A DNA stretch of 64,000 nt from Oceanomicrobium pacificus (GTDB lineage Bacteria; Pseudomonadota; Alphaproteobacteria; Rhodobacterales; Rhodobacteraceae), in NCBI RefSeq assembly GCF_009833495.1, contig NZ_WUWG01000003.1, forward strand, positions 806,001-870,000, written 5' to 3'. This document shows positions 35,982 through 60,986 of the stretch, in pieces (position 1 is the stretch's first letter; the number at the start of each line of letters is the position of its first letter). The notes below the pieces were generated by a model. The model saw only the letters and a list, made by a program, of their open reading frames with translations. It ran no database searches and had not been told where the DNA came from. Made by a program: the position numbers and the translations under genes.

Positions 35982-36613
35982 CGGACGCTTTCGTGGCCGC
36001 GCTGGTCGGCGTGATCTTCGCGCAGTTGGCGCCCGGGCCGAACCTGCTCGCCGTGGCGGCAGCGGGGCTGGCCGACGGGCGGCGGGCCGCGCTCGGCGTC
36101 GTTTTCGGGGTGGCCACCGGCATTCTTGTCTGGGCGGCGCTTGCCGCCATCGGGCTTGGCGCGGTGATCGCCGCCCTGCCCGCAATGTTCACCGTGCTGA
36201 AACTCGTGGGCGGCGGCTACCTGCTCTGGCTCGGCGCGAAGGCGCTCTGGAGCCTGCGCAGCCCGACCGGCCCGGCGCTCAAGGGCGAGCGCCGCGGCCT
36301 GACGCTGGCGACCGGCTGGCGCCGGGGGATCATCGTGGTGCTGACGAACCCCAAGGCTGCCGTCATGTGGGCTGCGGTCGGCGCGTTCCTCTTCGGTGCG
36401 GGCCTGAACGCGGCGCAGGTCATGGCCTTCGGGCCGCTGGCCGCGCTGACGGCCATTGCCATCTATGGCGGCTACGGGCTTCTCTTTTCCAGCCGTTCGG
36501 TCGGGCGGGGCTATGCCCGCGCGGCCCGTATTTTCGACGCCGGTTTCGGGCTGGCCTTCACCCTGCTCGGCGGCTCGCTCGTCGTTGATGCCCTGCGCCG
36601 GAGCGTGCCATGA
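35978..36613 (+). CDS. LysE/RhtB-family exporter inside the formate dehydrogenase operon
   Basis: A 211-residue inner-membrane protein with about six spans and the LysE family N-terminal pattern FAQLAPGPNLLAVAAAGLAD (in part), followed by GGGYLLWLGAKAL and LTNPKAAVMWAAVGAF. Such proteins export amino acids or related small molecules; the substrate here is unknown. It overlaps the stop of the upstream formate dehydrogenase gene and the start of the downstream one by 4 bases each, so it is fully embedded in the operon. A mechanistic link with formate oxidation is not established. Confidence 0.9.
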   Translation: MTDAFVAALVGVIFAQLAPGPNLLAVAAAGLADGRRAALGVVFGVATGILVWAALAAIGLGAVIAALPAMFTVLKLVGGGYLLWLGAKALWSLRSPTGPALKGERRGLTLATGWRRGIIVVLTNPKAAVMWAAVGAFLFGAGLNAAQVMAFGPLAALTAIAIYGGYGLLFSSRSVGRGYARAARIFDAGFGLAFTLLGGSLVVDALRRSVP

Positions 36614-39372
36614 GCGACCGCATCACCGTCACGCTGGACGGGCGCGAAATCTCGACCACGCCCGGTACGACCATCTGGGACCTGGCCCACGGGCGCGGGC
36701 TGACGCTGCCGCATCTGTGCCACCGGCCCGAACCCGGCTACCGCGCGGACGGCAATTGCCGCGCCTGCATGGTGGAGATTGAGGGCGAGCGGACGCTTGC
36801 GGCCTCCTGTATCCGCGAAGTGGCGGACGGCATGGTCATCCGGACTGACAGCGACCGGGCCCGCGGCGCGCGGCGCACCGTATTGGAACTGCTCGCCGCC
36901 GACCAGCCCGCGCCGGAGGACGCGCATGATGCAGGCAGCCAGATCGACCGGATGATCGCGGAGACGGGCGCGCGCCGCGACGCCTATCCCCCCCGCCCCG
37001 CAGCGGAGGTGCCGCTGCTCGACGCCAGCCATGTCGCGATGCGGGTCAACCTTGATGCCTGCATCCATTGCAACCTGTGCGTTCGGGCCTGCCGCGAGGT
37101 GCAGGTCAATGACGTGATCGGCATGTCCCGCCGCGGGATGGACAGCCGCGTGACCTTCGATCTGGCTGATCCGATGGGCGCCTCCACCTGTGTGGCCTGC
37201 GGCGAATGCGTGCAGGCCTGCCCGACCGGCGCGCTGATGCCCGCAACCATCCTCGATGCGGACGAACGGGGCAGCCGACAGGACAAGGATCGCGAGGTCC
37301 GGTCGGTCTGCCCCTATTGCGGCGTCGGTTGCCAGCTGACCTTCAACATCCGCGACGAGAAGATCGCCTGGGTCGACGGCGCGCCGGGCCCCGCCAACGA
37401 AAACCGGCTCTGCGTGAAGGGCCGTTTCGGCTTCGACTATATCGGCCATCCGCACCGGCTGACGGCGCCGCTCGTGCGGCGCGACGATGCGCCGCCCAAG
37501 GGCCTGAATGTCGATCCGGCGGATCCGATGACCCATTTCCGCGAGGCCAGCTGGGACGAGGCGCTCGACCGCGCCGCAGGCGGGCTGGCAGGCTTGCGGG
37601 ACAGGCATGGCGGGCGCGCGGTCGCGGGTTTCGGGTCGGCCAAATGCTCGAACGAGGAAGCCTATCTGTTCCAGAAGCTGATCCGCTCGGGCTTCGGGCA
37701 CAACAATGTCGACCATTGCACGCGGCTCTGCCACGCCTCGTCCGTGGCCGCCCTGATGGAGAATGTCGGCTCCGGCGCAGTCACCGCCGGGTTCAACGAG
37801 ATCGAGAATGCCGATGTGGCCATCGTGATCGGCGCCAACCCGACCGAGAACCACCCTGTCGCCGCGACCTATTTCAAGCAATTCGCCAAGCGCGGCGGCA
37901 CGCTGATCGTCATGGACCCGCGCGGACAGGGGCTGCGCCGCCATGCCGAACACATGCTGCAATTCCGCCCCGGCAGCGACGTGGCGCTTCTGAACGCGAT
38001 CATGCATGTGATCGTGTCCGAGGGGCTCCACGACCGGCAGTATATTGACGCCTATACCGAGAATTTCGACGCGTTCCGCACCCATCTGGACGGGTTCCCG
38101 CCGGAGAAAATGGCGGATTTGTGCGGGATCGACGCTGAGGAAATCCGCGCGGTGGCGCGCGCCTTTGCCGGTGCGCGGGCGGGCATGATCTTCTGGGGGA
38201 TGGGCGTCAGCCAGCATGTGCATGGCACCGACAATTCGCGCTGCCTGATCTCGCTGGCGCTGCTCTGCGGCCATGTCGGGCGGCCGGGCACCGGGCTGCA
38301 CCCGCTGCGCGGCCAGAACAATGTGCAGGGCGCGTCCGATGCGGGGCTGATCCCGATGTTCCTGCCCGACTACCAGTCCGTGGAACAGGCCGAGTTGCGC
38401 GCGCCTTTCGACACGCTCTGGGGCGGCGCAAATGTCGCGCCCGAACGCGGCCTGACCGTGGTCGAGATCATGGATGCGATCCATGATGGCGATATTCGCG
38501 GCATGTATATTCTGGGCGAGAACCCGGCCATGTCGGACCCCGATGTCGACCATGCGCGCGCGGCGCTGGCGCGGCTCGACCATCTGGTCGTGCAGGACAT
38601 CTTCCTGACAGAGACTGCCAATTATGCCGATGTGATTCTGCCGGCTGCCGCCTGGCCGGAAAAGACGGGCACGGTCACCAACACCAACCGGCAGGTGCAG
38701 ATGGGCAGGCCGGCGGTCGCCCCGCCGGGTCAGGCCCGCCCAGACTGGGAAATCACGGCGGCGCTGGCCAAGCGGCTCGGGCTCGACTGGGCTTGCGACC
38801 ATCCGCGCGACGTGTTTGCCGAGATGAAGCAGGGCATGGCGTCGCTCGACAATATCACCTGGGACCGGCTGGAGGCCGAGGGCGTCGTCACCTACCCGAC
38901 CGAAGGGCCGGACGATCCCGGCCGCTCGATCGTGTTCGGCGACGGGTTCCCGCGCGCGGGCGGACGGGCACGTTTCACACCGGCCGAGGTCACGCCGCCG
39001 GCCGAGGTGCCGGATGCGCGCTTCCCGATGATCCTGATCACCGGACGGCAGCTGGAACATTGGCATACGGGGTCGATGACGCGGCGCACGGCGGTGCTCG
39101 ATGCGCTGGAACCGGAAGCAAATGCCGCGCTCCATCCGCGCACCCTGCGGCGGCTCGGCGTGGAAGCGGGCGGGCGGCTCCGGATCGAGACACGGCGCGG
39201 CGCGATCGAGATCATGGCCCGCGCCGACCGCGCGGTGGCCGAGGACACGGTCTTCGTGCCCTTCGCCTATGTCGAGGCTGCGGCCAACATCCTGACGAAC
39301 CCGGCGCTCGACCCGTTCGGCAAAATCCCGGAGTTCAAATATGCGGCCTGTGCGGTGACGCCAGCGGACTGA
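36610..39372 (+). CDS. fdhF: Formate dehydrogenase alpha subunit, molybdopterin-dependent
   Basis: The catalytic subunit, which oxidises formate to CO2. The 920-residue protein has an N-terminal 2Fe-2S ferredoxin-like domain (HLCHRPEPGYRADGNCRACM, in part), two 4Fe-4S motifs (CIHCNLCVRACREVQ and CVACGECVQACPTGA), another 4Fe-4S motif (CPYCGVGCQLTF), and the molybdopterin domains. The active-site position reads DHCTRLCHASSV, so the metal ligand is cysteine and not selenocysteine. The last third has QLEHWHTGSMTRR and NPALDPFGKIPEFKY. The start overlaps the LysE gene stop. It ends 3 bases before the convergent ureG. Confidence 0.96.
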   Translation: MSDRITVTLDGREISTTPGTTIWDLAHGRGLTLPHLCHRPEPGYRADGNCRACMVEIEGERTLAASCIREVADGMVIRTDSDRARGARRTVLELLAADQPAPEDAHDAGSQIDRMIAETGARRDAYPPRPAAEVPLLDASHVAMRVNLDACIHCNLCVRACREVQVNDVIGMSRRGMDSRVTFDLADPMGASTCVACGECVQACPTGALMPATILDADERGSRQDKDREVRSVCPYCGVGCQLTFNIRDEKIAWVDGAPGPANENRLCVKGRFGFDYIGHPHRLTAPLVRRDDAPPKGLNVDPADPMTHFREASWDEALDRAAGGLAGLRDRHGGRAVAGFGSAKCSNEEAYLFQKLIRSGFGHNNVDHCTRLCHASSVAALMENVGSGAVTAGFNEIENADVAIVIGANPTENHPVAATYFKQFAKRGGTLIVMDPRGQGLRRHAEHMLQFRPGSDVALLNAIMHVIVSEGLHDRQYIDAYTENFDAFRTHLDGFPPEKMADLCGIDAEEIRAVARAFAGARAGMIFWGMGVSQHVHGTDNSRCLISLALLCGHVGRPGTGLHPLRGQNNVQGASDAGLIPMFLPDYQSVEQAELRAPFDTLWGGANVAPERGLTVVEIMDAIHDGDIRGMYILGENPAMSDPDVDHARAALARLDHLVVQDIFLTETANYADVILPAAAWPEKTGTVTNTNRQVQMGRPAVAPPGQARPDWEITAALAKRLGLDWACDHPRDVFAEMKQGMASLDNITWDRLEAEGVVTYPTEGPDDPGRSIVFGDGFPRAGGRARFTPAEVTPPAEVPDARFPMILITGRQLEHWHTGSMTRRTAVLDALEPEANAALHPRTLRRLGVEAGGRLRIETRRGAIEIMARADRAVAEDTVFVPFAYVEAAANILTNPALDPFGKIPEFKYAACAVTPAD

Positions 39373-39375: not shown

Positions 39376-40014
39376 TCATGCGTCGGCCGGTGCGGGGGCC
39401 AGTTGCAACCCGCCATGCCGGATAAGGAACTCGACCACCGGGGCCACGCCCTCGTCATGGCGCAGCGCACAGAAGGCGAAGGGCCGTGTTCCGCGCTGCG
39501 CGGCCGCATCGCGTTTCATCACGTCGAGCGACGCGCCCACATGGGGCGCCAGATCGGTCTTGTTGATGACAAGCAGGTCGGAGCGGGTGATCCCCGGACC
39601 GCCTTTGCGCGGGATTTCTTCCCCGGCGGCCACATCGATCACGTAGAGCGTGATGTCTGCCAGTTCGGGGCTGAACGTGGCCGACAGATTGTCGCCGCCG
39701 CTCTCGATCAGGACGAGGTCGAGATCGGGAAAGGACCGGTTCAGGTCCGCAACCGCCGCCAGATTGATCGATGCATCCTCTCGGATCGCCGTATGCGGGC
39801 AGCCGCCGGTTTCAACACCGCGGATCCGCTCCAGCGGCAGGGCCTGCACCCGCATCAGATGTTCGGCATCCTCCTGCGTGTAGATGTCATTGGTGATGAC
39901 GGCCATCGAGCAGCGGTCGCGCAGGGCGCGGCAGAGCTTTTCGGTCAGTGTCGTCTTGCCCGCGCCGACCGGGCCGCCGATGCCCACGCGCAGCGGGCCG
40001 TTCAGGGAAGTCAT
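39376..40014 (-). CDS. ureG: Urease accessory GTPase UreG
   Basis: A GTPase that delivers nickel to urease. The 212-residue protein has the P-loop [17 protein letters not shown], the metal-binding CPH in [27 protein letters not shown] and the G4 motif [12 protein letters not shown]. It lacks the long N-terminal histidine stretch of some relatives. It is the last gene of the minus-strand block ureD-ureE-ureF-ureG, and its ATG overlaps the ureF stop by 4 bases. The urease structural genes are not in the block. Confidence 0.97.
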
Positions 40015-40667
40015 GTCCGGAAAATCCTTGTCGTCTGTGTTTCATGTCGCAGGGCGGCCAGATCGGCCATGATCGCATGGCCGCCCACATCCGCGAGTGT
40101 CAGGTGGCGGCTCTCCTCCACCAGTGCGTCAATCGGCGCGAAGCGGGCCGCGAGCAGCCGCTGCCCTTCGGTCTGGCCGAGCGGCATGAAGCGCACCGCC
40201 GCCGCGATGAGGGCCGAGATCACGCCATGCAGGTAGAGCCGGCAGGCCGCGTCGCGGTCGACCCCCATACGGGCCGCAGCCGCGCCGACGGCGACGGGAT
40301 AGGGCCAGTCGCCCAGTGCCTTGCCGAGCCTGTCCGGCCAGACTGCGCGCGACGTGGCGGCAAAGGCCGTGCCCTGCGCATCGGTTTCCAACAGCCGCTC
40401 GCGGCCCTGCGCGAAGGCCCGAACCTCCGCCGCCAAAGCGTCGCGCGCGGCAAAATCCGGTGCGGTATGGGCCAGCGTCAGGAAAATCGCATCCGCGCGC
40501 GGGCCGCCGGCCTCCAGAAGCCGGTCAAGCCACCCACCAAGGTCGTCAGCGGAGGTGATCTGTTCCTCCGATATGGCCGTCTCCAGCCCGTGGGAATAGG
40601 CAAAGGCCCCGACCGGATAGCTCGGCGACATCCACGCCGCCAGCAGATGTTCGGACTGCGCGCTCAA
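40011..40667 (-). CDS. ureF: Urease accessory protein UreF
   Basis: Forms the activation complex with UreD and UreG. The 218-residue, mostly helical protein begins with the family pattern [20 protein letters not shown] and contains GRERLLETD and a later [20 protein letters not shown] (in part). The start is a TTG at 40667 that overlaps the ureE stop (TTGA). The only close ATG would remove conserved N-terminal residues, so TTG is preferred; its use is inferred from homology and coupling. Confidence 0.92.
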
Positions 40668-41143
40668 TGGCTGTGCCCGTGGGTGCGACCGGTGCCGTAG
40701 GCACCGCCTTCGGGGTTGAAGGGTGCATCGAGCCGCGTCACCCGCGCGCCCAACTGTTCCAGCATCTCGGCGATCACATGGTCCCAGCGCAACAGGAGCG
40801 ACGTCTCATGGATTTCGCAGGGCAGATGGCGGTTTCCGACATGCCAGGCGCAGCGCACCAGATGCAGCCCGGCCTCGCATTCGGCGCGCATCAGCGGCTC
40901 GGCCTCTGCCGTGACCTGCATCCGCTGGCCGGTGTCGAGCACGAGCACATTGCCGTCCTGCAGCCACGTCACTTCGGGCTGGTCGAGAAGGCAGCGCAAG
41001 CCCCCCTCGCCCGTCAGCACCACGCGGCGGCGGGTCCGGTCGTCATAGGCCAACCGCACGATATCGTCGGGCGTGCCATGCCCGTGATCAAGGATCTCCA
41101 CCACACGGGGCAGTGTCGGTTCGGCGTCAGGTCGGTCGGTCAT
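40664..41143 (-). CDS. ureE: Urease accessory nickel chaperone UreE
   Basis: A dimeric nickel-binding protein that passes Ni to UreG. The 159-residue protein has the N-terminal UreE domain with VRLAYDDRTRRRVVLTG and the C-terminal domain with HLVRCAWHVGNRHLPCEIHE (in part), which contains the central metal-binding histidine region. The short tail ends RTHGHSH, a small His-rich site. The ATG at 41143 is preferred over one at 41149 because AAGGA is 6 bases upstream. It starts 9 bases after the ureD stop, where ureA would usually begin. Confidence 0.94.
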   Translation of the reverse strand: MTDRPDAEPTLPRVVEILDHGHGTPDDIVRLAYDDRTRRRVVLTGEGGLRCLLDQPEVTWLQDGNVLVLDTGQRMQVTAEAEPLMRAECEAGLHLVRCAWHVGNRHLPCEIHETSLLLRWDHVIAEMLEQLGARVTRLDAPFNPEGGAYGTGRTHGHSH

Positions 41144-41152
41144 CGTCATCCT

Positions 41153-42001
41153 TCACATATGCCAGACACGCGGCAGCGGATCGTCCCGCACATGGCCAAG
41201 CGCCGCCAGAAGCCCGCGCCGGAGCGCCTGTCCGTCGCGGGCGAGTATCCTCAGCAGGAGCTTGCCGTCCCAGCCGGACACGCCGCTGGTCAGGCCCTCC
41301 AGCCCGCTGATCGCCGCGCGCAGCCCGTCCGTCCGCGCTTCGGCATCCGGCGTAACCATCAGAACCGTGCCGAGCCCGAGATGGCCCGCCAGCGCGGCCG
41401 GATCGCGCAACGGATCAGACCCGCCGCGCGGCAGGCATAGGTCGAGCCGGTCACGATAGAGCGGTTCACCGTCGCGGCGGATGTGCCAGCGGTCGGACAG
41501 GGCAAGCTTCGCAATCGTCTCGCCCATTGCGGCGCGGCCGAACAGGAAACTTTCCGCCGCCAGAAACCGCGCATCGCCCGCAAGGGTAACGTCCAGTTGC
41601 CGGTCGAGCGCCGCGCCGTCAAAAAGGATCGTTTCCTGCGGCAGCCAGTCGAGCCGTGCGCCTGCCCCGACCGTCAGCCGGTTGCGGACCTGTGCCGCAC
41701 CGCCTGCGCTGCGGTAGATCCGCTCTGCCGTCTGGCTGGTGACCACGAGCGCACCGCCCGGATCGACCTCCGCCGACACATCGAGCCGGTCACCCCCGGT
41801 CAGGCCACCTGCCGTGTTGATGAGCACCGCCTGATCCGGCCCGCCATAGGTGCGGGGGCGCAGGATCTTGGCCGATCCGGCCTGATGCAGACGCCGCAGG
41901 CCCGTGGCCGCTTGCACAATCGCGGCACGCCCGCGCACCCGTTGCAGGGTGACAGGCGGTTGCGGCGTGCCGGGCCGGTCGATGGACAGCGTGTCAGTCA
42001 T
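41153..42001 (-). CDS. ureD: Urease accessory protein UreD
   Basis: Scaffold protein that binds apo-urease and recruits UreF and UreG. The 282-residue protein shows the family segments LINTAGGLTGGDRLDVSAEV (in part), TSQTAERIYRS, LPQETILFDGAALDRQLDV and AESFLFGRAAMGE. The ATG at 42001 is chosen because the preceding open stretch is unlike UreD. In most genomes ureD is followed by ureABC; here ureE follows directly after 9 bases. There is a 145-base space to the upstream dehydrogenase gene. Confidence 0.95.
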   Translation of the reverse strand: MTDTLSIDRPGTPQPPVTLQRVRGRAAIVQAATGLRRLHQAGSAKILRPRTYGGPDQAVLINTAGGLTGGDRLDVSAEVDPGGALVVTSQTAERIYRSAGGAAQVRNRLTVGAGARLDWLPQETILFDGAALDRQLDVTLAGDARFLAAESFLFGRAAMGETIAKLALSDRWHIRRDGEPLYRDRLDLCLPRGGSDPLRDPAALAGHLGLGTVLMVTPDAEARTDGLRAAISGLEGLTSGVSGWDGKLLLRILARDGQALRRGLLAALGHVRDDPLPRVWHM

Positions 42002-42146: not shown

Positions 42147-43241
42147 TCAGCCGATCGTGTCGAGAAGCACCTGCGTGACCGCGCGCGTGCCCATGTCGCC
42201 GCCGAACTCCATCGGCCGCAGGGCATTTGCCGCAAAACCGGACTCGACCGCTGCCTCGATCCGGGCAGCAGCCGCAGCATAGCCCTTGTGACCACGCGTA
42301 TCGGCCAGATAATCGAGCATCATCGCGCCTGACAGGATCGCCGCGAGCGGATTGGCCTTGTCCTGCCCCATAATGTCGGGGGCGCTGCCATGGGCCGGCT
42401 GGAAGAGGCCGATCGCATCACCGATCTCGCCGCAGGCGGCCATGCCCATGCCGCCGACCAGCCCGCCCGCCAGATCCGACAGAATGTCGCCGAACATGTT
42501 TTCCATGACCAGCGTGTCGAAGGCCCAGGGCTGGCGCACCAGATCGAGCGCCTGCGCATCGACATAGTTGTAGCCGCGCGGCACATCCGGATAGCGGTTC
42601 GCCACCTCGTCGAATATCTGGCGGAAGAAAGCCATGGAGGTGAAGACATTGGCCTTGTCGACGCAGGTCAATTGGCCGGAGCGCCCCTTCTCTGCCCTGC
42701 GCGCGGCAAAGCGAAACGCAAAATCATGAAGTTTTTCAGTCGTTTTACGACTGATCCTCAACGTCTCTCTGACTTCCTCACTGCCGATCACCTCGGCCCG
42801 CCCGTGCACAGCGGCGGAGTAGAAAAGCCCCTCCGTGCTCTCGCGGATGATGACAAGGTCGATGCCGGCGGCCCGCGGATCCGCGAGCCGTTGCGGCGCG
42901 TTGGGATAGGCTTTCACAGGCCGCACGCCGGCATAGAGCTGATAGCGGTCGCGCAAGCGCAGATGCGGGGAGATTTCCGTGCCATCCGCGTGCCGGATCG
43001 CGGGCAAACCAATGGCCCCGAGAAAGATCGCATCCGCTTCGCCGGCCTTTTCCTCGCCCCCCGGTTCGATGTCGTGACCGGTTTCACTATAATAGCCGGC
43101 ACCGGCCCGGACCGGTTGCAGGGTGAGCGGCGCGGCGCCTTCACGGGCGAGAGCGGCCCCGGCCACGGCCAGCGCTGCCCGCGTGACATCAATCCCGATC
43201 CCGTCGCCTTCGATCACCGAAACGGTTGCGCCCTTGCTCAC
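42147..43241 (-). CDS. Isocitrate/isopropylmalate dehydrogenase family protein
   Basis: A 364-residue NAD(P)-dependent beta-hydroxyacid oxidative decarboxylase. It starts VSVIEGDGIGIDVTRAAL and has IIRESTEGLFYSAAVHG, KANVFTSMAFFRQIFDEVAN (in part), the metal site in ENMFGDILSDLAGGLVGG, and PAHGSAPDIMGQDKANP. The substrate (isocitrate, isopropylmalate, tartrate or homoisocitrate type) cannot be decided from sequence alone. The GTG at 43241 gives a normal N-terminus; an in-frame ATG at 43295 would add an unlikely Gly-rich stretch. It is the last clear core gene before the AT-rich island. Confidence 0.88.
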   Translation of the reverse strand: MSKGATVSVIEGDGIGIDVTRAALAVAGAALAREGAAPLTLQPVRAGAGYYSETGHDIEPGGEEKAGEADAIFLGAIGLPAIRHADGTEISPHLRLRDRYQLYAGVRPVKAYPNAPQRLADPRAAGIDLVIIRESTEGLFYSAAVHGRAEVIGSEEVRETLRISRKTTEKLHDFAFRFAARRAEKGRSGQLTCVDKANVFTSMAFFRQIFDEVANRYPDVPRGYNYVDAQALDLVRQPWAFDTLVMENMFGDILSDLAGGLVGGMGMAACGEIGDAIGLFQPAHGSAPDIMGQDKANPLAAILSGAMMLDYLADTRGHKGYAAAAARIEAAVESGFAANALRPMEFGGDMGTRAVTQVLLDTIG

Positions 43242-43297
43242 CTGCCTGCCCCTTTTGCCCTGCGCCAGAGCCACGGACCCGCCGCCGCCGCGCATGT

Positions 43298-44487: not shown

Positions 44488-46548
44488 GTGCTTAACGAAT
44501 TTGGCGAACAATCCGGCCTCTACCTCAAAGATGGGATAATATTCTTGGCGGAGGCGTTGACCCTGTCGGACAGTCGACCAGGTCAGATTGCGGGGATCTT
44601 GGCGCTAACGACCATTTTTCTTGGAGTTTGGTACCTGCTTCGGACTGGACGTCAACTGAACGCAATACAATTGCTTGACCAAAAGATACGGGCTTACGCT
44701 GACATTCCTTCTTTCGCGAAGGGGCACAGTGAACTCATTTACGAGCTGCGGTCCAGTTTTCCCAAGAAAGGCCCTAGGCATACCGTTTGGGAAGCCTTCG
44801 ACGAGTTTAACGAGACCGTCGTGCGAGATGACATCGACGATGAGCCGACTATCCGAAACTCAATCCGACCGGCCTCCTTTCTCAACGTCGAAGATTTGGG
44901 GTTCGGGCCTGGCTTCTTCCGAATCCTTCCAAACACCCTTGTGTCGGCCGGGCTGCTTCTGACATTCCTAGGTCTTGTCGCGGCACTCCATCAGTTCTCC
45001 CAATCTATCGACGTCAGCGCTGATGGTATGGACGGGGCGATGCGAGATTTCATGCAGATCGCTTCGGCAAAGTTTGTCATGTCTTTGGTAGGACTATTTT
45101 GCTCGATCCTGTTTACATTCCTGCTCCGAACTAGGCAAAACAAGCTCGACGCCGCCCTTCACCGCCTATGTATCGGCATTGAGCGGCGTCTCGTCTTCGT
45201 CAGCCTAGAAGATCTTGGCTTCCGGCAACTCCGCGCTGCCACCGAGCAACGCGAGCACCTGCGCGAGATCGGAATGGGCATGGTTGCCGAACTTCAGAAG
45301 CCGCTCGAGGCCCTACCCGATCGGATCACTGGAGCCATTGCAGACAAAATGGATCCTATCTTCGACCGCGTTACCTCAATGGGAACAAGCAACATGGAAG
45401 GGCTCGTTGGAAATCTGTCGGATCAGCTTTCACACTCCGTCGGGAATGCACTGACACGCGCTAGCGAGTCGCTTGGCGAGGCGACAGATCGGATCGGCCA
45501 AATGGTTGACCGAATGAACGCGACAAACGAACAGGCTGGCGACGGTCTGCGCAGCGCCCTAGACCAAATGGCACAGGCAATCACCAAAATGCGAGAAGAG
45601 GTCGCCACGAGCGGCCGAACCGCTTCTGAAGCGATGAACGAAGGAGCGGACAAGCTTCTGTCGGTCATGAACGAAACCCTTGCTGGCATCCGGGACAATA
45701 CAGGTGAAGGCGCTCAGTCTATGCGCGCGGCTGCGGAGGAGATGCGTACCGCAGCGGAGGGCTTCCGTGATGCACTCGCAAACGCCAGTGAGGAAAGTGG
45801 CAATGCCGCCAGAGAAAGGATGGAACAAAGCAGCGCCGAAGCAGGACAGGCGATCGAAGATGTGGGCAAGTCGCTGCTCGTCAGCTTCAATCAAACTAGT
45901 GCCGAAATTGCCAAGCTCGGCACAGAAATGGGCAGCACGATCGGAGAAGAATTGCTGGGCCGTCTTGAGACAATCAGCCACCGCCTCGAGGCAATGGCCG
46001 AAGCGGTCCAACGTGGAGCTTCAGGCGCACAGAGTGCTGCACAGGGCATGAACTCCAGTGCAGATGCCATCAATGGAGCTTCGGACGGTTTCCGTAACGC
46101 CAGTCAGGACCTTACAGCCGCAGCGGAACCGCTCCGCGCCTCTCATGAACGCATTGAAACTACGCTGCGCCGAGTCGGAGACCTCGTCGAAAGCGTTTCC
46201 GAGACGCTTATGCTAAACTCTGCTTCCGTATCGCAGAATGCTGCGCATGTACTGGAAACGGCACAGACCGCCCTCGGCAATGAGCGGGAGGGAATCCGTC
46301 GCTCGCTTGAAGCCACTGAAGCCACCATGGCCCAACTTTCGAGCGAGGCCGAGAAGCTTGACCAGATCGACGAAATGCTGGGCCGTGCCTTGACGGAATA
46401 CAATGCAAAGCTGGAAGCCGCCCTAGGGTCGGCGCAGGATCATGTAAAAGAGATGAGCGATACGCTGGACCCTGGCCTCCAGACTCTTCGAAGTGTGGTC
46501 GAGCAAGCCGAGGCGTTTCTTCCATCACAGGCACGGGGGCGTGCATGA
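44488..46548 (+). CDS. zorA: Zorya anti-phage motor protein ZorA
   Basis: The MotA/ExbB/TolQ-like stator subunit of Zorya, which with ZorB forms a proton-driven inner-membrane motor that senses phage infection. The 686-residue protein has three probable spans at about 33-52, 149-168 and 194-214. Residues 215-686 form a very long helical tail rich in Ala, Glu, Ser and Met, with repeated heptads that fit the intracellular tail of ZorA. The start is a GTG with CAGGAG upstream. It overlaps zorB by 4 bases (ATGA). Identification rests on this architecture plus the three downstream genes. Confidence 0.9.
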   Translation: MLNEFGEQSGLYLKDGIIFLAEALTLSDSRPGQIAGILALTTIFLGVWYLLRTGRQLNAIQLLDQKIRAYADIPSFAKGHSELIYELRSSFPKKGPRHTVWEAFDEFNETVVRDDIDDEPTIRNSIRPASFLNVEDLGFGPGFFRILPNTLVSAGLLLTFLGLVAALHQFSQSIDVSADGMDGAMRDFMQIASAKFVMSLVGLFCSILFTFLLRTRQNKLDAALHRLCIGIERRLVFVSLEDLGFRQLRAATEQREHLREIGMGMVAELQKPLEALPDRITGAIADKMDPIFDRVTSMGTSNMEGLVGNLSDQLSHSVGNALTRASESLGEATDRIGQMVDRMNATNEQAGDGLRSALDQMAQAITKMREEVATSGRTASEAMNEGADKLLSVMNETLAGIRDNTGEGAQSMRAAAEEMRTAAEGFRDALANASEESGNAARERMEQSSAEAGQAIEDVGKSLLVSFNQTSAEIAKLGTEMGSTIGEELLGRLETISHRLEAMAEAVQRGASGAQSAAQGMNSSADAINGASDGFRNASQDLTAAAEPLRASHERIETTLRRVGDLVESVSETLMLNSASVSQNAAHVLETAQTALGNEREGIRRSLEATEATMAQLSSEAEKLDQIDEMLGRALTEYNAKLEAALGSAQDHVKEMSDTLDPGLQTLRSVVEQAEAFLPSQARGRA

Positions 46549-47828
46549 GGGCGCAAGCAAGGCGGCTCCGGCAAGAGGAAGAAGAAGAAAGCGCTTTCAT
46601 CTCGATGACTGACATGACAGTCGGTTTCCTTTTCATCATGATGATCCTGCTCGCTTTCTTTGCCAGCCAAATGCAGGACTCCGATGTTGTTCCCAGATCC
46701 GAACTAGATCGGATCATTCAGGACCGGGATGCCTGGCAGCAAAAAGCCGAACTTCGTGCGGAGCTCATACTACGTCTCGAGGCCCAAATCGAAGCTTTGA
46801 AACAGCAGCGTAATCAATTGCAGTTGCAGGTCACGAATTTAAACGCCGCGCTCGATATCGAACGGGTAAGGGTGGCCGAATTGGTCTCGGAAATCGATCT
46901 GGCTCGTACTCAGATCGCGGAACTGGAAGAGCGCATTCTGGCGCTTCTTCAACAGATTTCTGCGCTAGACGATTGGCTCGAAGAGTTGGCGCGGCAACGT
47001 GATCAGCTACTAGATCAGGTCAAAAACCTCAAAGTCGCCCTCGATGTCGAACGGGCGCGGGTGACAGAATTGGTCTCTGAACTCGATCTGGCTCGCTCGC
47101 GGATCGTGGAACTGGAAGAGCGCATTCTTGCACTTCTTCAACAGATATCAGAACGGGAAAAAGAGATTGAGGACCTGAGGCGACAACTCGCCGAATTGCA
47201 GCAAATTGACCCCTTGGAAGCATACCTCGCTCAAGTGGCGCAGGCGCGGCGCGAGGTTCTTCAGAGACTTCGCGACGCGATCAAAGTCGATTTTCCCGAT
47301 CTTCAGGTTGAACTCAGCGAAGAATCCGACGCGCTGCGTTTTCAAGGCGAAGGTCTTTTTGCCTCTGGAAGGTCCGATCTGGCAAGGGATCGACGTGGGA
47401 TCGTCGCGCGATTGGCAGAAAGGCTCGACGAAGTGCTACCCTGCTTCACGTTGGGCGAAGCATCGAGGTTCGAAAACGATTGCAATCCCGGCTTCGTCAT
47501 GATCGAGGCAGTGCAGATCGAAGGTCACACCGACGATGTCGGAACAGACCGAATAAACCGAAACCTGTCTGCAGCACGGGCAAACAGCACCTTCTTTGCC
47601 ATGACACAGGCTGCATCAGGAATCATGCAGCATCAGAACCTCAAGAGGCAACCTGTGTTGTCTGTGGCCGCCTACGGACCGGACCGACCTGTTGCTTCGA
47701 ACGAGACGCCGACAGGTCGTGCCACAAACCGCCGGATCGACCTGCGTTTCATCATGGTGACCCCACAGGACACGGACGGGATTGACATTATTCGCGAGGC
47801 GCTGAAAAGCGTCGGAGACCCCCAGTGA
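46545..47828 (+). CDS. zorB: Zorya anti-phage motor protein ZorB
   Basis: The MotB-like partner of ZorA. The 427-residue protein has one membrane span (about 24-44, MTVGFLFIMMILLAFF) with the ion-binding aspartate Asp23 in SMTDMTVG. A coiled-coil stalk (about 50-225) follows, with an internal duplication. The C-terminal OmpA-like peptidoglycan-binding domain (about 265-420) has IEGHTDDVGTDRINRNLSAAR (in part) and GRATNRRIDLRF. The stalk is long compared with typical MotB proteins. The ATG overlaps the zorA stop and the stop overlaps the zorC start. Confidence 0.93.
   Translation: MRAQARRLRQEEEEESAFISMTDMTVGFLFIMMILLAFFASQMQDSDVVPRSELDRIIQDRDAWQQKAELRAELILRLEAQIEALKQQRNQLQLQVTNLNAALDIERVRVAELVSEIDLARTQIAELEERILALLQQISALDDWLEELARQRDQLLDQVKNLKVALDVERARVTELVSELDLARSRIVELEERILALLQQISEREKEIEDLRRQLAELQQIDPLEAYLAQVAQARREVLQRLRDAIKVDFPDLQVELSEESDALRFQGEGLFASGRSDLARDRRGIVARLAERLDEVLPCFTLGEASRFENDCNPGFVMIEAVQIEGHTDDVGTDRINRNLSAARANSTFFAMTQAASGIMQHQNLKRQPVLSVAAYGPDRPVASNETPTGRATNRRIDLRFIMVTPQDTDGIDIIREALKSVGDPQ
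46809..47150 (+). repeat. Tandem duplication in the ZorB stalk, 189-base offset
   Basis: Residues 89-139 (46809-46961) and 152-202 (46998-47150) align without gaps with 38 of 51 identical residues, by hand count. The offset is 63 residues, exactly nine heptads. Both copies share ELVSE and ELEERILALLQQIS. The bases are also similar, so the duplication is fairly recent or under strong constraint. Confidence 0.9.
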
Positions 47829-49180
47829 GCGGAGCAGAACAAACAGCATCTGAAGCCAGGAACCGTGCGACGGCGCGTGCGTTGCTCAGCCGAGGTCAAT
47901 CGTTTCGTGTTCGCGCGCTTCCGTCACTAGAGCAAATCAGGCGCAGAATCTCCAACATCCGGAGCCGATGGCCGAATGCCGTCCGCACGCCAGAGGATCG
48001 CGACCGAGAGACGTTGGCAATGGAGATGTTGCGACGGGTGACTGAGTGGGACTGGAGCAACATCACAACGCAGCGTGTCACCTCGGCCGCAATAGCGGTG
48101 TTCGACGATGATCGACGGTCGCGTCTGGATCTCTCGCCGGTCCGGGAATTCTACTTCACGGAGATCGCGACCCGAGAGCCCGGTGCCTTTCTAGACGGGA
48201 TGGTCGGCGTCTATATCGAAAGCTTCACTCCAGGCGCTGAACACACACAGAACCTTGCGAAAGCTCTGGAGGATCGAAGCGACGAACTTGGCGCACGACA
48301 CCTTAATCTCATAACCGCCCTACCCGAGTTGTTCCGCCCGGAAGCCGTGACATATGCTTTAGCCAGCATCATGCTGGAGGCGGATGACGCTTACGCGCAC
48401 TTGAAGGCCATCGGCCTGAGCAGCCCTCACACGACCGGCTTGGCCAAAGCAGCGCAGAAGACCTTTATTGAACGCCTGGCACCCGATCTCATCAATGCCG
48501 AGGCCCGTCGAAAACTCTTCAACTGGCTGACGCCTGCGAAAGGACCTGTCCTTCAGGCCGGCGCTGGTCCAGCTGTAGAAGCGCTACTGGCTCCATGGCG
48601 CGACCGAAACCCTTCTGACGCAACGCGAAACGAGTTAAGTGAAACAATAATTGCTGCTTGGAATGATCCGCGCCTGTACGCGGGCGGCATCTGGTCGGGT
48701 TTTGACAAAGAGTTACGCGCCGTCCTGCTCCGCTGGCTAACGCATCAAGACATGAAGTTCTTCTGCGACATGGTCACAGCCACGCAGAATAGCCACATGT
48801 GGCCGCCGCGCAGAGATTTCTGGCTGAAGCTATATCAAGACAAACTGATCGATGAGGCCTGGGTCGCTTTTGGCTCCGAGGCGCGGCGATATGCGCGACA
48901 GAACCTCTTGCGAGGAGACAAAACCAACATGAATCACCGTTTCGGACTCCAACTCGATCGCGGTGGGAGCACGTCGCTGCTGATCATGCGAATCGGCAAC
49001 AAAATTGTTGTAGACGGCTGCCACAGCTACAAGACGCACATCTTTCGTGCAGACGACACCAAAGCTCCCAAACTCTATAAAAGCCGATATCATTGCGATG
49101 ACATCATGCGGGCATCGTCGAACTCGAAGCCGCACAATTCCATACCGAGATGGTCGCAGTGGGTCTTGCAGCATGTCTGA
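47825..49180 (+). CDS. zorC: Zorya effector component ZorC (EH-signature)
   Basis: A 451-residue cytoplasmic protein in the position of ZorC of type I Zorya. The C-terminal third shows the expected conserved region: HMWPPRRDFWLKLYQDKLID (in part), AWVAFGSEARRYAR, MRIGNKIVVDGCHSYKTHIF (in part) and a final PRWSQWVLQHV. In Escherichia coli Zorya, ZorC binds DNA and works with ZorD against phage genomes. The start is a GTG at 47825 that overlaps the zorB stop, with GGAGA upstream. The first 150 residues are helical and unremarkable. Confidence 0.85.
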   Translation: MSGAEQTASEARNRATARALLSRGQSFRVRALPSLEQIRRRISNIRSRWPNAVRTPEDRDRETLAMEMLRRVTEWDWSNITTQRVTSAAIAVFDDDRRSRLDLSPVREFYFTEIATREPGAFLDGMVGVYIESFTPGAEHTQNLAKALEDRSDELGARHLNLITALPELFRPEAVTYALASIMLEADDAYAHLKAIGLSSPHTTGLAKAAQKTFIERLAPDLINAEARRKLFNWLTPAKGPVLQAGAGPAVEALLAPWRDRNPSDATRNELSETIIAAWNDPRLYAGGIWSGFDKELRAVLLRWLTHQDMKFFCDMVTATQNSHMWPPRRDFWLKLYQDKLIDEAWVAFGSEARRYARQNLLRGDKTNMNHRFGLQLDRGGSTSLLIMRIGNKIVVDGCHSYKTHIFRADDTKAPKLYKSRYHCDDIMRASSNSKPHNSIPRWSQWVLQHV

Positions 49181-52100
49181 GGAGAAACCTGTCTATAGCG
49201 TCAATGATGACGACATCGAAATCCGATTTCCTCCGACAAGGCAGGGCCTTCTCTCCAGGTTGATGGCAACACCAAAAAACCGGAGCTTCACCGAGCTCGC
49301 GCCTGAAGACCGGGATTTGCTCTTTGCCATTGGCGACCTCCGGGCTTGGGCCGACACTCATATCGATGATGTTTCTGTCGCACCGGATCTACTCCGCATT
49401 TCACACGACGCCGCCGCCAGCCTGTCGGTTCAGGCGGCGGATGCACTTGGTCTTCCACGTACCGTCGACCTATTGCTGAAAACTGACGTAACGGGCGTAC
49501 TTGGCCGACCAGACTTCAAACTTCACTACGAATGGTCACGCAACGGACGCCGCGAGCATCCTAGGCGCCGCGGCTCCGTTTTGCATACTTCCGGCGGTCC
49601 GCGTCGATTGCCTCTTTGGATGAAGCGGGCGTTGGACCTTGCCGATGACTTCGACGCCACCTGCCCGGTCGAGGACCATTGGCGGGCGCTTGCAGAGTTC
49701 CGCCGAGCGATCGAGCCGGAGGACCTGATCGCCCCCGAGATGCCCGCCAACCGCAAGATGGCTCAATTGTCAATGACTGCTTTTTTACGTGGGTTAGAGG
49801 TGCGGATCGCCGACCGGTTCTCCATAGCTCCGGATGCCACATTGGGGCAATTCGAAATCGTACCCTATTCCTCGCAGCGGCTAGACAGTGAAGGCATAAC
49901 CGACGACGAAATCTCTGAACAGCATGCAGAACTTTCCGGCGAAGAGCTTGCCGTTTTCCAGCACCGGTTGCACGCACGTGGCGCTCGCCCTGCCTTTCAA
50001 CTTGGCAACAACTCTTATCTTGTGGTTGACCGAGGTACCGCCCCCGTTCTCGAAGAACTCGCGCGCGCTCAGAAAGCGTCCCGTGAAGAACGACGGGCGT
50101 TCATCGAAAACCCTCGCAGCTTCATCACCAATGCCGTGAACCGACACATGGAGGCCACTGGCGCCTTCGAAGGCCTCGAAGCCGCTGAACAAGAGGAGAT
50201 GGTCGAGGCAATTGCCGGCCCGTCGCTCGTCGAAAGTCGAGAATATTCTGAGCGCGTTACTGGCGTCACCGTTCATAAGCCGCCCACAGAACCAATTGAG
50301 GGGAGCGGAACCACATGGCTGCCAGAAGCCTTTGCGCAACACCTTGTCGAGGCGATTCAAAAGATGCCTGACGGCGAGTTGCAAAGCCTTCGCCAGCAAA
50401 TGGCTGCCGTTCTAGAAAAAGGCGGCGAAACACCGGCCGAAATAAACGGCGAAAGTGTCGAAGTTACCCCAGCTAGGCTAGCCGCCATCGAAGGGGAGAT
50501 AAATCGGCGCGAAAAGCTGAATATGCCAGACCATTCTGATGAGGAACCCGTACAAACGCCCGATGCGGATGGACCAATAATCCTCGACACGCTCAACAAT
50601 TACGAAGAGCTGTCTTGGCAGGCGCAGTTAACGGCCCGGACCCCCGCAATCGCCACAATCCTGCCCGAAGCGATCCGAACGCCTCTTCACCAGCATCAGA
50701 GCAAAAGCTTCAAATGGGCGCTAAATTCATGGCAGGCCGGCTTGCCCGGTATCCTCAACGCCGACGAACAGGGTCTCGGCAAGACGTTGCAGACCATCGC
50801 TTTCCTCACTTGGCTCAAAGAACACATGAAAAAGCCAACAGCAGAATGCCGAGGTCCTATTCTTATCGTGGCGCCGACTTCCCTGCTTCGAAATTGGGAA
50901 CAGGAAGTGGATTCCCACGTAGAGGGTAGAGGCTTCGGCAACCTCATCCGGCTATATGGTGGTTCACTCGGCTCCCAAAAGCGACGGGGCTCACAAGGGA
51001 CGGAAACCCAGTCGGGATTGCCGCAGCTCGATCTTGACTGGCTAGACGAGGCCTTCGAAGACGGGCGCGCGCACCGCTACTGGTTTCTGACGACATACAC
51101 GACGTTAGCAAACTACCAGCACTCCCTAGGTCGTGTTCCGTTTTCGGCGATGGTCATGGACGAGATCCAAAACATCAAAAACCGCACCACGCTCGCGTCC
51201 CGGGCCGTAGAGGCGATGAACGCTGATTTCCGCATCGGCTTGACGGGCACACCGATCGAGAACGCTGCCATCGACCTCTGGACGATCATGGATCGCATTG
51301 CACCCGGATGCCTTGGCTCAGGAACCGATTTCCGAGAACGCTACGCCACGCCAGATGCTGAAAACATGGCCGATCTCCATGACCGCGTGTTCAAGCCGAA
51401 TGAAGGCAAACCACCCCTTGGGCTGCGGCGACTGAAAGATGAGGTTGCCCGCGACCTACCCAAGAAGCGCAGGTACTTGCATCCGCGTCTGATGCCCAAA
51501 ATGCAAGCTGAAGCTTACGATCTTGCCCAGCTTAAACTGGCGAATGGTGGACCAGGCGCGGCTCTCAAAATGCTGCACCACATCCGTTCAGTCTCGGTCC
51601 ATCCCGGAGATGCAGGGGCCAGCTCCCCTGACCAATTCATTGCAAAAAGTGCAAGGCTCGAAGCCGTGATTGATATTCTGCACCGCATCCGAGACGCACG
51701 TGAACGTGTGCTCGTCTTCATCGAACATCGAGACATGCAGTTCCGCTTTGCCGAGATCGTGCGCCACTTGTTCGGCCTCGATCGGATCGACGTGATTAAC
51801 GGCGACACACCGATCCCTAGACGCCAACAGATCGTCAACCAATTCCAGCGACACCTTGACGTCGATGGGGGCTTCGACATGCTGATCCTGGGCCCCAAGG
51901 CAGCAGGCACAGGTCTAACGCTGACTGCGGCTACCCACGTGATTCACCTGTCACGATGGTGGAATCCGGCTGTGGAGGAACAGTGCAATGACCGCGTCCA
52001 CCGCATCGGTCAGGCCCGGCCGGTATCGGTGCATATTCCGATGGCGATCCATCCAGAGCTCGGTGCACAGAGTTTCGATGGCTTGCTTCAGAGCCTAATG

Positions 52101-52301
52101 CAGCGCAAACGCAGATTGGCCGAACAGGCGCTTTGGCCGATGGGGGACAGCAAAGCCGATGTCAAGGGGCTCACCGAGGCCGTGGCTTCTCCACAGCGTG
52201 GACAAACAGGAAAGATTCCCGAGATAATGGTCGAGCAATTTCGACGCGACGGGATTGCGCCTGTTTCACCTGGCTCCGATGGCTCCTACGAACTTCTCTG
52301 A
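49173..52301 (+). CDS. zorD: Zorya effector component ZorD (SNF2-type helicase)
   Basis: A 1042-residue protein. The first 500 residues have no clear domain. The SNF2-type motor covers about 515-1000: motif I NADEQGLGKTLQTIAFL near residue 528, motif II VMDEIQNIKN near 662, LTGTPIENAAIDLW, and motif VI CNDRVHRIGQARPVSVH near 940. In type I Zorya, ZorD degrades or blocks phage DNA after the motor is triggered. The ATG at 49173 overlaps the zorC stop by 8 bases. The stop at 52301 is exactly where a minus-strand phage-gene fragment begins. Confidence 0.92.
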   Translation: MSEEKPVYSVNDDDIEIRFPPTRQGLLSRLMATPKNRSFTELAPEDRDLLFAIGDLRAWADTHIDDVSVAPDLLRISHDAAASLSVQAADALGLPRTVDLLLKTDVTGVLGRPDFKLHYEWSRNGRREHPRRRGSVLHTSGGPRRLPLWMKRALDLADDFDATCPVEDHWRALAEFRRAIEPEDLIAPEMPANRKMAQLSMTAFLRGLEVRIADRFSIAPDATLGQFEIVPYSSQRLDSEGITDDEISEQHAELSGEELAVFQHRLHARGARPAFQLGNNSYLVVDRGTAPVLEELARAQKASREERRAFIENPRSFITNAVNRHMEATGAFEGLEAAEQEEMVEAIAGPSLVESREYSERVTGVTVHKPPTEPIEGSGTTWLPEAFAQHLVEAIQKMPDGELQSLRQQMAAVLEKGGETPAEINGESVEVTPARLAAIEGEINRREKLNMPDHSDEEPVQTPDADGPIILDTLNNYEELSWQAQLTARTPAIATILPEAIRTPLHQHQSKSFKWALNSWQAGLPGILNADEQGLGKTLQTIAFLTWLKEHMKKPTAECRGPILIVAPTSLLRNWEQEVDSHVEGRGFGNLIRLYGGSLGSQKRRGSQGTETQSGLPQLDLDWLDEAFEDGRAHRYWFLTTYTTLANYQHSLGRVPFSAMVMDEIQNIKNRTTLASRAVEAMNADFRIGLTGTPIENAAIDLWTIMDRIAPGCLGSGTDFRERYATPDAENMADLHDRVFKPNEGKPPLGLRRLKDEVARDLPKKRRYLHPRLMPKMQAEAYDLAQLKLANGGPGAALKMLHHIRSVSVHPGDAGASSPDQFIAKSARLEAVIDILHRIRDARERVLVFIEHRDMQFRFAEIVRHLFGLDRIDVINGDTPIPRRQQIVNQFQRHLDVDGGFDMLILGPKAAGTGLTLTAATHVIHLSRWWNPAVEEQCNDRVHRIGQARPVSVHIPMAIHPELGAQSFDGLLQSLMQRKRRLAEQALWPMGDSKADVKGLTEAVASPQRGQTGKIPEIMVEQFRRDGIAPVSPGSDGSYELL

Positions 52302-53272: not shown

Positions 53273-54397
53273 TCAAGTGGAAATCGCGTCGGCAGTCAAG
53301 CGTCTGTACAGTTTATCAGCGTACTCAGGTTCGATTGAACGGGCATACGCAATTAGCCCAGCAATGTGTTTGATCATTGATTGCTCGCTCCTAAATTGCC
53401 TTGCCTCGCTATGTTTTTTGATTCCGATGGATGGATTCGTAATCGCATAGACATGAGTTTCGAGATTGTTTTTGAATCTGCGTGTCAATCTGGGCCGACT
53501 AGTGTCGACGTTCAATCCCAACAGGACCTTGCGGGCGCCCGGAGGTGAGATGGTCGTTTTCCGATTGTTTGGAGAAAGGCCAAACGAACGGATTTCATCA
53601 ACTATGGAGAAAATCAGTTCTTTTGCTTCATGCCGGCTCGACTCCCTTTTGGTAGAGAATGCGAGGTCATCAGCGTAGCGTGTGTAGATCCATCCACGCC
53701 TTATTGCTATTTCCGAAATGGCTTCATCAAGCTCATTGACCGCCAGATTGGCTAACATTGGGCTGCTGGGAGCGCCTTGGGGGAGCACGCCCAAACGTGC
53801 CTTGGATACCTCGAATTGAGCTGTTCCAAAAACTCTTGTACAAATCCGCGCCATCTGGAAGCAAAGCGGTCTAGGGTATCCAAGAGAGGAAAATGTTTCG
53901 AACACCATCAGCTCATTGATGGATTCAAAAAAATTCTTGACGTCTACTTTCAGCAGCCAACGTGCACCGCAGTGCTCCTTTACAGCATTGACGAGGCTTG
54001 ATCCCGGGGCGTAGGCGGTACTGGACGAGTGAGGTTTGCAATTGTTGAGGATCTGTGCGGCGATCCAGCATTGGGTTTTCGAAAGGAGAGGCTCTGGGAC
54101 GCAAATCGTCCTGCGATTTGAAGCTTCGCTCTTAGGCCCTCTTTTCTTTGAAATCGAGAACACTCGATAAGGGTCCTTCTCGCGGTCAACGTAGGAAAGT
54201 AGAAGTCCAATCGGAACATCAACAGTCGCGGCCAAATGCTCGAGTGAAAACAAAACGGGAAGATCCGGCCCTTGAGCCTTGATCCTCCTTGCAATACCCA
54301 ATGCTGGCTCCGCGATCGTTTCAACCTCTCCCTCACGCCTGCATGCTTGCATAAAGGCCGTTGGGCTCCAGGGATTCCGGCGAGACCATCCGGTCAC
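53273..54397 (-). CDS. Retron-like reverse transcriptase
   Basis: A 374-residue reverse transcriptase without maturase or endonuclease domains. The motifs are KVDVKNFFESI (region A), LPQGAPSSPMLANLAV (region B), and YTRYADDLAFS (YADD catalytic box). Before them lies a region with TAYAPGSSLVNAVKEHCGAR, comparable to the retron X region, and after them KVLLGLNVDTSRPRLTRRFK (region Y position, where retrons have VTG). DGR and group II features were not seen. The start is GTG at 54397 with GGGGAG 8 bases upstream, overlapping the upstream gene by 4 bases (GTGA). A retron-like RNA follows. Confidence 0.88.
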   Translation of the reverse strand: MTGWSRRNPWSPTAFMQACRREGEVETIAEPALGIARRIKAQGPDLPVLFSLEHLAATVDVPIGLLLSYVDREKDPYRVFSISKKRGPKSEASNRRTICVPEPLLSKTQCWIAAQILNNCKPHSSSTAYAPGSSLVNAVKEHCGARWLLKVDVKNFFESINELMVFETFSSLGYPRPLCFQMARICTRVFGTAQFEVSKARLGVLPQGAPSSPMLANLAVNELDEAISEIAIRRGWIYTRYADDLAFSTKRESSRHEAKELIFSIVDEIRSFGLSPNNRKTTISPPGARKVLLGLNVDTSRPRLTRRFKNNLETHVYAITNPSIGIKKHSEARQFRSEQSMIKHIAGLIAYARSIEPEYADKLYRRLTADAIST

Positions 54398-55707
54398 TGG
54401 TCATTCTCCCCTAGCGATCCAAGCTTAGGGACGAAATCTGCCGAGGCCTCCTTGAAGTTCGTTCGGGCAACCGACTTCGCATTTCGGTCGAGCTGTGAAA
54501 ACGCAGTCCAAAGCTCTCGAATTTCGTCCCCTTTGTTTGTTGACTGTGGATTCTCGAAATTTAGCTTTGCGCCTTCAATCCTGTTCTCTAAATCCCGAAC
54601 TATCTCAGGGTCGAACAGGAAACCGTTCACCGCGTTTTGGAACCGATTGCGTGTCTCGATCGGGAGATCCACGATCCTACTCGAGATGTATGATCGTATA
54701 GAAATTAATTGCGCATACAGTTCACTCGCTTCCTTGTTAGGCATAGCATTCACAACCAACCGGCCGGCGTCAGCCGTTCTGGCTGCTGACGAGGTATTTC
54801 GTTCGACACGAGATACATTTGATGCAGCTCGTTCGAGAGATTCTGCTAGCTGGATGAAATCCTCCAAGATCTGGGCGTGAGCGCCACCCGAAAAGTTTTC
54901 ACGACGCTGTTTTGATCGCGTTGACTCGGATATCTCCTTCCGAAGTTGGTTGAAAGAAGACTGAACATCCAGATTGTGCTGACTTAGAACCACAATGGCA
55001 TTTGCATGTTCCAGGGAACCTTTAGACAGACCCAACGAATCCGCCAACTCGTTGAACTTGCAGCGCCAATCATAGGTTGATCCATACCCCAGAGGGCAAA
55101 ATTGAAACAAATTTTCAATCAGCCCATAGGATCTCCAGCTTTTCCATGAAGGTGAATCCGATAAGCTTTCTTGGAGGCGCCGTAGCCGATAAGAATCGGT
55201 TCCTACAAGTAGAATTGAACGACATTCCGAGAATCGAACTTCATCCGGCGTCGGCCGATACAGCCAAGAACGTTGGCGTCGGTGTAGGTATTTGAGAACT
55301 CCTGAAAATGCTTCTTCAACAGGTGTCCGGTTTTCGCCCAGTCCGATGCTGCGGGCAAGACCTTCAGCTCGTGTCGAGAATTTCCCACTAGATCTTCGCC
55401 TACACGTATGCCGAAAAATATCGTCAGTAGCGAAATCGCCATCGAAGTAGACACCAACGGGGTTTGGAAAGGCTGTCAGGATGAAAGAAAGCCTGCTGAC
55501 CAAAAATCGCTCCAGGATCTGGGGGTCGGACAAATCAATCTCATCGAGCTCGCCAGCCAATACATCGTAATGCTGTCGGCCGACACCCAGATGCTTCGAG
55601 CGTGAGCGAATCCACTCCCTACCGATTTCGGTTTCCGAAATTCTTGTCTGATAAGTCGTCTTTCTCAGATGAATGGCTCCTTGCCCAACGTTCAATTGAT
55701 ACGTCAA
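54394..55707 (-). CDS. Unknown protein coupled to the retron-like RT, candidate effector
   Basis: A product of up to 437 residues with no family I can name. The N-terminal half is mixed: ISETEIGREWIRSRSKHLG, VSRLSFILTAFPNPVGVYFD, then FSECRSILLVGTDSYRLRRL (in part) and FCPLGYGSTYDWRC. The second half is helical and polar (about 255-437), compatible with coiled coil. No membrane span or signal peptide. A distant relation to phosphoribosyltransferase-like retron partners is conceivable but unsupported. No ATG exists near the start; TTG at 55707, another TTG, or a CTG with AAGGAG upstream are candidates. The stop overlaps the RT start. Confidence 0.72.
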   Translation of the reverse strand: MTYQLNVGQGAIHLRKTTYQTRISETEIGREWIRSRSKHLGVGRQHYDVLAGELDEIDLSDPQILERFLVSRLSFILTAFPNPVGVYFDGDFATDDIFRHTCRRRSSGKFSTRAEGLARSIGLGENRTPVEEAFSGVLKYLHRRQRSWLYRPTPDEVRFSECRSILLVGTDSYRLRRLQESLSDSPSWKSWRSYGLIENLFQFCPLGYGSTYDWRCKFNELADSLGLSKGSLEHANAIVVLSQHNLDVQSSFNQLRKEISESTRSKQRRENFSGGAHAQILEDFIQLAESLERAASNVSRVERNTSSAARTADAGRLVVNAMPNKEASELYAQLISIRSYISSRIVDLPIETRNRFQNAVNGFLFDPEIVRDLENRIEGAKLNFENPQSTNKGDEIRELWTAFSQLDRNAKSVARTNFKEASADFVPKLGSLGENDQ

Positions 55708-55771
55708 TTGCGATTATTCGAGATTTTGATAAATCAAAACAAAAAATTCAATTCAAAAAATAGCCTCTAGC

Positions 55772-55951: not shown

Positions 55952-56153
55952 GCTTGAGTTATTTTGCCAACTCTTCTTACTGGAAACACTCCCCTCCACG
56001 GTTCGCACGCCCACTCTGCGGAAATCCCCTACGGGTGGTTTATTGGTACCGACAAATTGCAAAATTAAGTATCCGACCATACATAGAATTGAAAAGTGCC
56101 CTCTGAATATCCAAATCCTCAGAAGCGAATGATAAATCCAATCCATAAAAATG

Positions 56154-56170
56154 AATGTTCTCTGAACATT
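56154..56170. promoter_or_regulatory. Palindrome upstream of the 114-residue gene
   Basis: AATGTTC-TCT-GAACATT, 28 bases before the start at 56198, followed by TTTT. It could be an operator or a weak terminator stem. It does not match the alphaproteobacterial LexA site, which is a direct repeat. Confidence 0.3.
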
Positions 56171-60985: not shown

Positions 60986-60986
60986 G

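Follow-up and report, generated by a model that had tools for sequence, protein, structure and literature searches.

A probable nickel urease encoded at two places in Oceanomicrobium pacificus, with ureDEFG apart from a urea-importer-linked ureABC

An intact ureDEFG block in the window

The window, by which we mean the whole 64,000-nucleotide stretch of Oceanomicrobium pacificus DNA analysed here (contig NZ_WUWG01000003.1, positions 806,001 to 870,000), lies on contig C3 of a genome of 3,255,458 bases in 10 contigs, hereafter G000. At window positions 39376-42001, four urease accessory genes stand on the minus strand in the order ureD, ureE, ureF, ureG, all with intact frames. The block and its immediate neighbours are as follows:

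42147..43247, minus strand: isocitrate/isopropylmalate-type dehydrogenase, upstream of ureD (366 aa as tested; Pfam Iso_dh, 7.9e-76)
41153..42001, minus strand: ureD, urease accessory protein (ORF, 282 aa from the ATG at 42001)
40664..41149, minus strand: ureE, nickel metallochaperone (ORF, 161 aa; alternative start at 41143)
40011..40667, minus strand: ureF, urease accessory protein (ORF, 218 aa; TTG start overlapping the ureE stop)
39376..40014, minus strand: ureG, GTPase (ORF, 212 aa)
36610..39372, plus strand: formate dehydrogenase alpha subunit (920 aa; TIGR01591, 721.4 bits, cut-off 666.25)

A sequence-only reading of this DNA had called the four accessory genes intact. Indeed, each is a full-length ORF that matches its Pfam family above the curated cut-off and also matches a solved homologue: UreD (PF01774, 9.4e-52; 8hcn_D, 6.8e-27), UreE (UreE_C, 6.6e-28, together with UreE_N; 1gmv, 9.5e-16), UreF (PF01730, 4.7e-31; 2wgl, 4.8e-13) and UreG (CobW/HypB/UreG domain, 2.1e-38; 5xkt, 2.9e-82). 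Among the NCBIfam models, UreG reached 312.8 bits with TIGR00101 (cut-off 204.2), UreE fell below the cut-offs of all ten UreE models listed, and neither UreD nor UreF had a match at E 0.001. Aligned to the solved homologues, UreG carries a GPVGAGKT loop and a CPH motif and UreE a GNRH stretch, all of which we take to have their usual roles.

The genes are tightly packed, with 4-base overlaps at both ureE/ureF and ureF/ureG. The ureD stop codon ends at 41153, so the spacing of 9 bases before ureE given in the sequence-only reading holds from the second ATG (41143), but the first ATG (41149) leaves only 3. Upstream of its ATG at 42001, the ureD frame stays open to 42295. A small sigma-70 scan gave nothing promoter-like ahead of ureD, and one terminator-like site versus 1.3 in shuffled sequence. 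In the contiguous alphaproteobacterial cluster, ureDABCEFG, the structural genes ureABC lie between ureD and ureE. Here the two genes are adjacent, as had been noticed, and tblastn with the UreA, UreB and UreC proteins of this same genome returned no match inside the window. On the other side of the block the formate dehydrogenase alpha gene converges on ureG with 3 bases between them, and dnaB lies 5.3 kb from ureG, running towards it. The dehydrogenase gene upstream of ureD falls under every specific NCBIfam cut-off.

Structural genes behind a urea importer on another contig

A search of the whole genome located the missing genes. The urease alpha-subunit N-terminal family has one match in G000, at C1:294247-294600, and intact ureABC occupies C1:292897-295814, directly after urtABCDE. 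In a 20-kb locus around the UreC match (L002), the genes run on the minus strand as follows:

L002 16411-15086, minus strand: urtA, over its NCBIfam cut-off
L002 15057-13402, minus strand: urtB, over its NCBIfam cut-off
L002 13398-12274, minus strand: urtC, over its NCBIfam cut-off
L002 12277-11534, minus strand: urtD, over its NCBIfam cut-off
L002 11532-10837, minus strand: urtE, over its NCBIfam cut-off
L002 10815-10513, minus strand: ureA, over the cut-off of TIGR00193
L002 10330-10487, minus strand: small ORF of about 51 codons between ureA and ureB
L002 10333-10028, minus strand: ureB, over the cut-off of at least one matching NCBIfam model
L002 9627-10028, minus strand: lprI, an LprI-like ORF (PF07007) between ureB and ureC
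L002 9610-7898, minus strand: ureC, over the cut-off of at least one matching NCBIfam model

The five subunits of the urea ABC transporter are thus present in order, and the ureA ATG follows the urtE stop after only 21 bases. UreC aligns over its residues 4-570 with solved urease alpha chains and shares with them the residues that we take to be nickel ligands, as well as the presumed lid histidine. Genome-wide, UreC, UreD, UreE (by UreE_C) and UreF have one match each. All seven genes of a nickel urease system, UreABC plus UreDEFG, are present with intact frames.

Two features of the structural locus deserve mention. The small ORF between ureA and ureB begins with a hydrophobic stretch and contains the histidine-rich motif AHxGAHLHPHG, and similar peptides occur in the ureA-ureB gap of L063, L082, L115, L130, L135, L142, L149 and L151; a peptide of this type was found in 9 of 130 such gaps, L002 included, and two further pattern matches look unrelated. 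The ORF possibly encodes a small urease-linked membrane peptide. An LprI-like gene between ureB and ureC is also found in many rhizobial and some roseobacter clusters.

A probable single urease from two loci

Intact ureABC elsewhere in the genome, taken with the single matches to UreC, UreD, UreE and UreF, points to one complete urease system split in two. We consider it very probable that this is an ordinary nickel urease encoded at two places, urtABCDE-ureABC and ureDEFG. UreA, UreB and UreC would come from the urea-importer locus (urtABCDE-ureA-small ORF-ureB-lprI-ureC), and UreD, UreE, UreF and UreG from the window block, acting in trans. In the established accessory-protein mechanism, nickel is delivered from UreE to UreG and on, with UreF and UreD, to UreABC. 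UreE of the window would pass nickel to the GTPase UreG, which together with UreF and UreD would deliver it to the UreABC apoprotein; urea would enter by UrtABCDE and then be hydrolysed by UreABC. We infer that both loci are expressed, that assembly occurs in trans and that the enzyme is active.

The sequence-only reading had left a choice between structural genes that had moved elsewhere and structural genes that had been deleted, with the accessory set a relic or in the service of another nickel enzyme. The first of these fits the genome. Deletion does not, as ureABC is present, and the accessory ORFs are intact and keep the motifs of their solved homologues. A search for another client, confined to the large-subunit family of NiFe hydrogenase, had no match in G000, with a positive control in 5 of 14 named genomes. 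We therefore set aside both the relic and the other-enzyme readings as very improbable. The one observation in their favour, which also counts against our preferred explanation, is that UreE is more diverged than usual, with a mean identity of 48% to 6 relatives versus 61% among those relatives. UreD has a mean identity of 46% to 9 relatives versus 47% among them. Average identities of this kind do not mark the accessory block as foreign; the UreE value is lower. It had also been said that ureABC elsewhere in the genome with normal urease activity would reduce the arrangement to a simple rearrangement; the first part of that statement, the presence of ureABC elsewhere, is what we find. For annotation, the lesson is that a genome-wide search should come before an orphan accessory block is taken for a relic.

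Rarity of the split in the family and in known systems

To place this arrangement among relatives, we used a sample of 199 genomes of the family, drawn evenly. UreD had matches in 162 of the 199 genomes, UreE in 164 and the UreC family in 167 (165 over the cut-off). Distances were taken among the matches listed, best places only, which gave a UreD-UreC distance for 137 of the 199 genomes and a UreD-UreE distance for 139. Among these listed matches, UreD and UreC lay within 4,885 bases on one contig in 129 of 137 genomes and apart in 8; UreD and UreE lay within 8,486 bases in 125 of 139 and apart in 14, some of them by contig breaks. The 8 UreD-UreC splits comprise three breaks at contig ends (G112, G163 and G196), four genomes in which ureD-ureA-ureB stay together and ureC lies elsewhere (G111, G116, G132 and G181), and G000. 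UreD and UreE closer than 1.2 kb were found in G000 only (1 of 139 among the matches listed), where the match starts are 561 bases apart, the next smallest distance being 2,862. Comparison of synteny agrees: ureA follows ureD at all 80 loci of the best 80 UreD relatives in the named collection, unlike here. No close relative with the same split was found, in a setting where the genus is represented by G000 alone and the named collection may omit G000 itself or genomes near it; in the rest of the family, UreD reaches at best 50% identity. In G132 the three genes sit at three distant places on one 3.3-Mb contig (its C1), with UreD at about 2.01, UreC at about 1.13 and UreE at about 2.52 Mb.

Contig-end breaks account for three of the eight apparent UreD-UreC splits, which raises the question of an assembly artefact in G000 as well. 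Such an artefact is most improbable here: both loci lie far from the ends of their contigs (1.0 and 1.2 Mb), operon-like spacing is kept at the ureD-ureE and urtE-ureA junctions, and the genome is 99.43% complete.

Clusters in which ureDABCEFG is contiguous occur in Rhodobacteraceae and Rhizobiales, some with urtABCDE in front and some without; they consist of the same seven families, and the order of ureDEFG is equal once ureABC is removed. As in G000, ureABC can have the urt genes before it, and many of these clusters hold an LprI-like ORF between ureB and ureC. The difference is that in G000 ureABC and ureDEFG are on different contigs. We infer that the contiguous state is the ancestral one. 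Urease genes are often scattered in cyanobacteria (PMC6737895): in Nostoc PCC7120 ureDAB-ureC and ureEFG form two loci, and in Synechocystis PCC 6803 all urease genes are scattered. As in G000, a complete set is thus spread over several loci, but in the cyanobacteria covered by the excerpt of that paper ureD usually stays with the structural genes, and a clean partition into ABC and DEFG with ABC behind urt is absent from the examples in that excerpt. The sets of G111, G116, G132 and G181 are likewise spread over distant loci, but keep ureD-ureA-ureB together. Bacillus subtilis has a urease without accessory genes, UreC being matched and UreD not in our control searches, whereas G000 has them; structural and accessory genes therefore need be neither neighbours nor both present. 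Titles and the beginnings of abstracts, which are weak evidence of absence, yielded no description of an ABC/DEFG split in Rhodobacteraceae. The ABC/DEFG split is rare in the family, and scattering of ure genes as such has already been seen in relatives and cyanobacteria. With the enzyme genes cleanly apart from all four assembly genes, G000 offers a natural setting for the question of chaperone-client specificity, and for that of independent regulation of the two sets, with urea supply tied to urt and nickel handling placed elsewhere.

A split of this kind could also have arisen if two redundant full clusters, one urt-linked and one dnaB-linked, had once been together in one genome and had then lost complementary halves. 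Both contexts exist in relatives, with urtE directly before ureD on the same strand at 42 of the 80 named loci and dnaB in that place at 19; a few family genomes have two UreD matches; and in G000 ureABC is urt-linked and dnaB is near ureG. However, dnaB runs towards ureG here and diverges from ureD in relatives, and the dnaB-linked loci inspected have, between dnaB and ureD, none of the genes that surround dnaB in the window. UreABC falls outside the urt-linked clusters, and no remnant genes were found at the two sites. Given the mismatch in dnaB orientation and neighbours and the position of UreABC outside the urt-linked group, we regard complementary loss as an unlikely rival.

Possible separate histories of the two halves

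Trees were built from 105 clusters with all seven genes, minus 22 Rhizobium/Rhizobiales rows that were removed ahead of the first trees. The single-gene trees omit L128, a long-branch row, and the careful trees from joined alignments used 32 chosen rows. For comparison, a tree of the housekeeping protein UvrA covered 28 genomes, two partial rows of 30 having been dropped. In the joined UreD-E-F-G tree of 32 rows, G000 groups with G067, G014 and two Amylibacter rows (99/95), apart from a 13-row clade made up mostly of dnaB-linked roseobacter clusters (100/99). The single-gene trees of UreE (96), UreF (96) and, weakly, UreG (82) agree with this grouping, and UreD gives no resolution. In the UvrA tree, which is otherwise poorly resolved, G000, G067, G014 and the Amylibacter genome G108 fall on one side of a 100/99 branch, together with G004 and G148, which are outside the DEFG clade. 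The joined UreA-B-C tree groups G000 first with G126, then with G147 and L082, on a branch (83/89) that is not starred; in the same tree the Amylibacter rows fall inside the dnaB-linked set (98/96) and G014 beside G106 (95/94).

These trees raise the possibility that the two halves have different origins, ureDEFG having been inherited with the lineage and ureABC having been received from, or swapped with, a cluster of roseobacter type and having ended up behind urt, so that the chaperones would serve a partly foreign enzyme. We regard this as possible, though falling short of an even chance. In its favour are the DEFG clade, with the overlapping set picked by UvrA, and the place of G000 in the ABC tree. 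By AU test, holding all five DEFG-clade rows together on UreABC was rejected (p 0.00019), as was placing G000 inside the 13-row dnaB-linked clade on DEFG (p 0.027). However, no starred ABC branch holds G000, and the vertical alternative, G000 together with G067 on UreABC, was not rejected (p 0.10). The five-row rejection is driven at least partly by Amylibacter and G014, and the Amylibacter rows are flagged for an odd letter make-up. Grouping G000 with G126, G147 and L082 on DEFG gave p 3.35e-8, a value that says little about G000, as those three relatives form no clade there. The tested groups were defined with the trees already in view, and the membership of G004 and G148 in the UvrA set also weighs against this reading.

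The case is clearer in the relatives. At the two Amylibacter loci (L045 and L122) and the G014 locus (L142) the clusters are contiguous, and their placement by UreABC conflicts, with good support, with that by UreDEFG, as though the middle part of each cluster had been swapped. Separate histories of UreABC and UreDEFG are thus well supported by the trees in Amylibacter and G014, and only suggested in G000; structural and accessory genes may have been inherited separately in the family. Tentatively, and with more doubt than confidence, ureABC might be viewed as a cassette exchanged between lineages independently of a lineage-following ureDEFG. G000 would then be the extreme case: its two sets lie physically apart as well, and an enzyme of other origin would be matured by accessory proteins inherited with the lineage.

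A putative defence island beside the block

A four-gene run of ZorA, ZorB, ZorC and ZorD, which matches a type I Zorya anti-phage system by PADLOC models, lies about 1.2 kb from the dehydrogenase gene that precedes ureD. An apparent defence island continues at 53273-63044, in which the ORFs at 54394-55707 (minus strand) and 60987-63044 (plus strand) had no PADLOC match and the following features were recognised along with the Zorya-like run:

44488-52301, plus strand: ZorA, ZorB, ZorC, ZorD
53273-54397, minus strand: reverse transcriptase, matching RT_III-A (retron-type) models
57624-60368, plus strand: MmeI-like type IIG restriction enzyme
60365-60985, plus strand: PDC-S67 candidate
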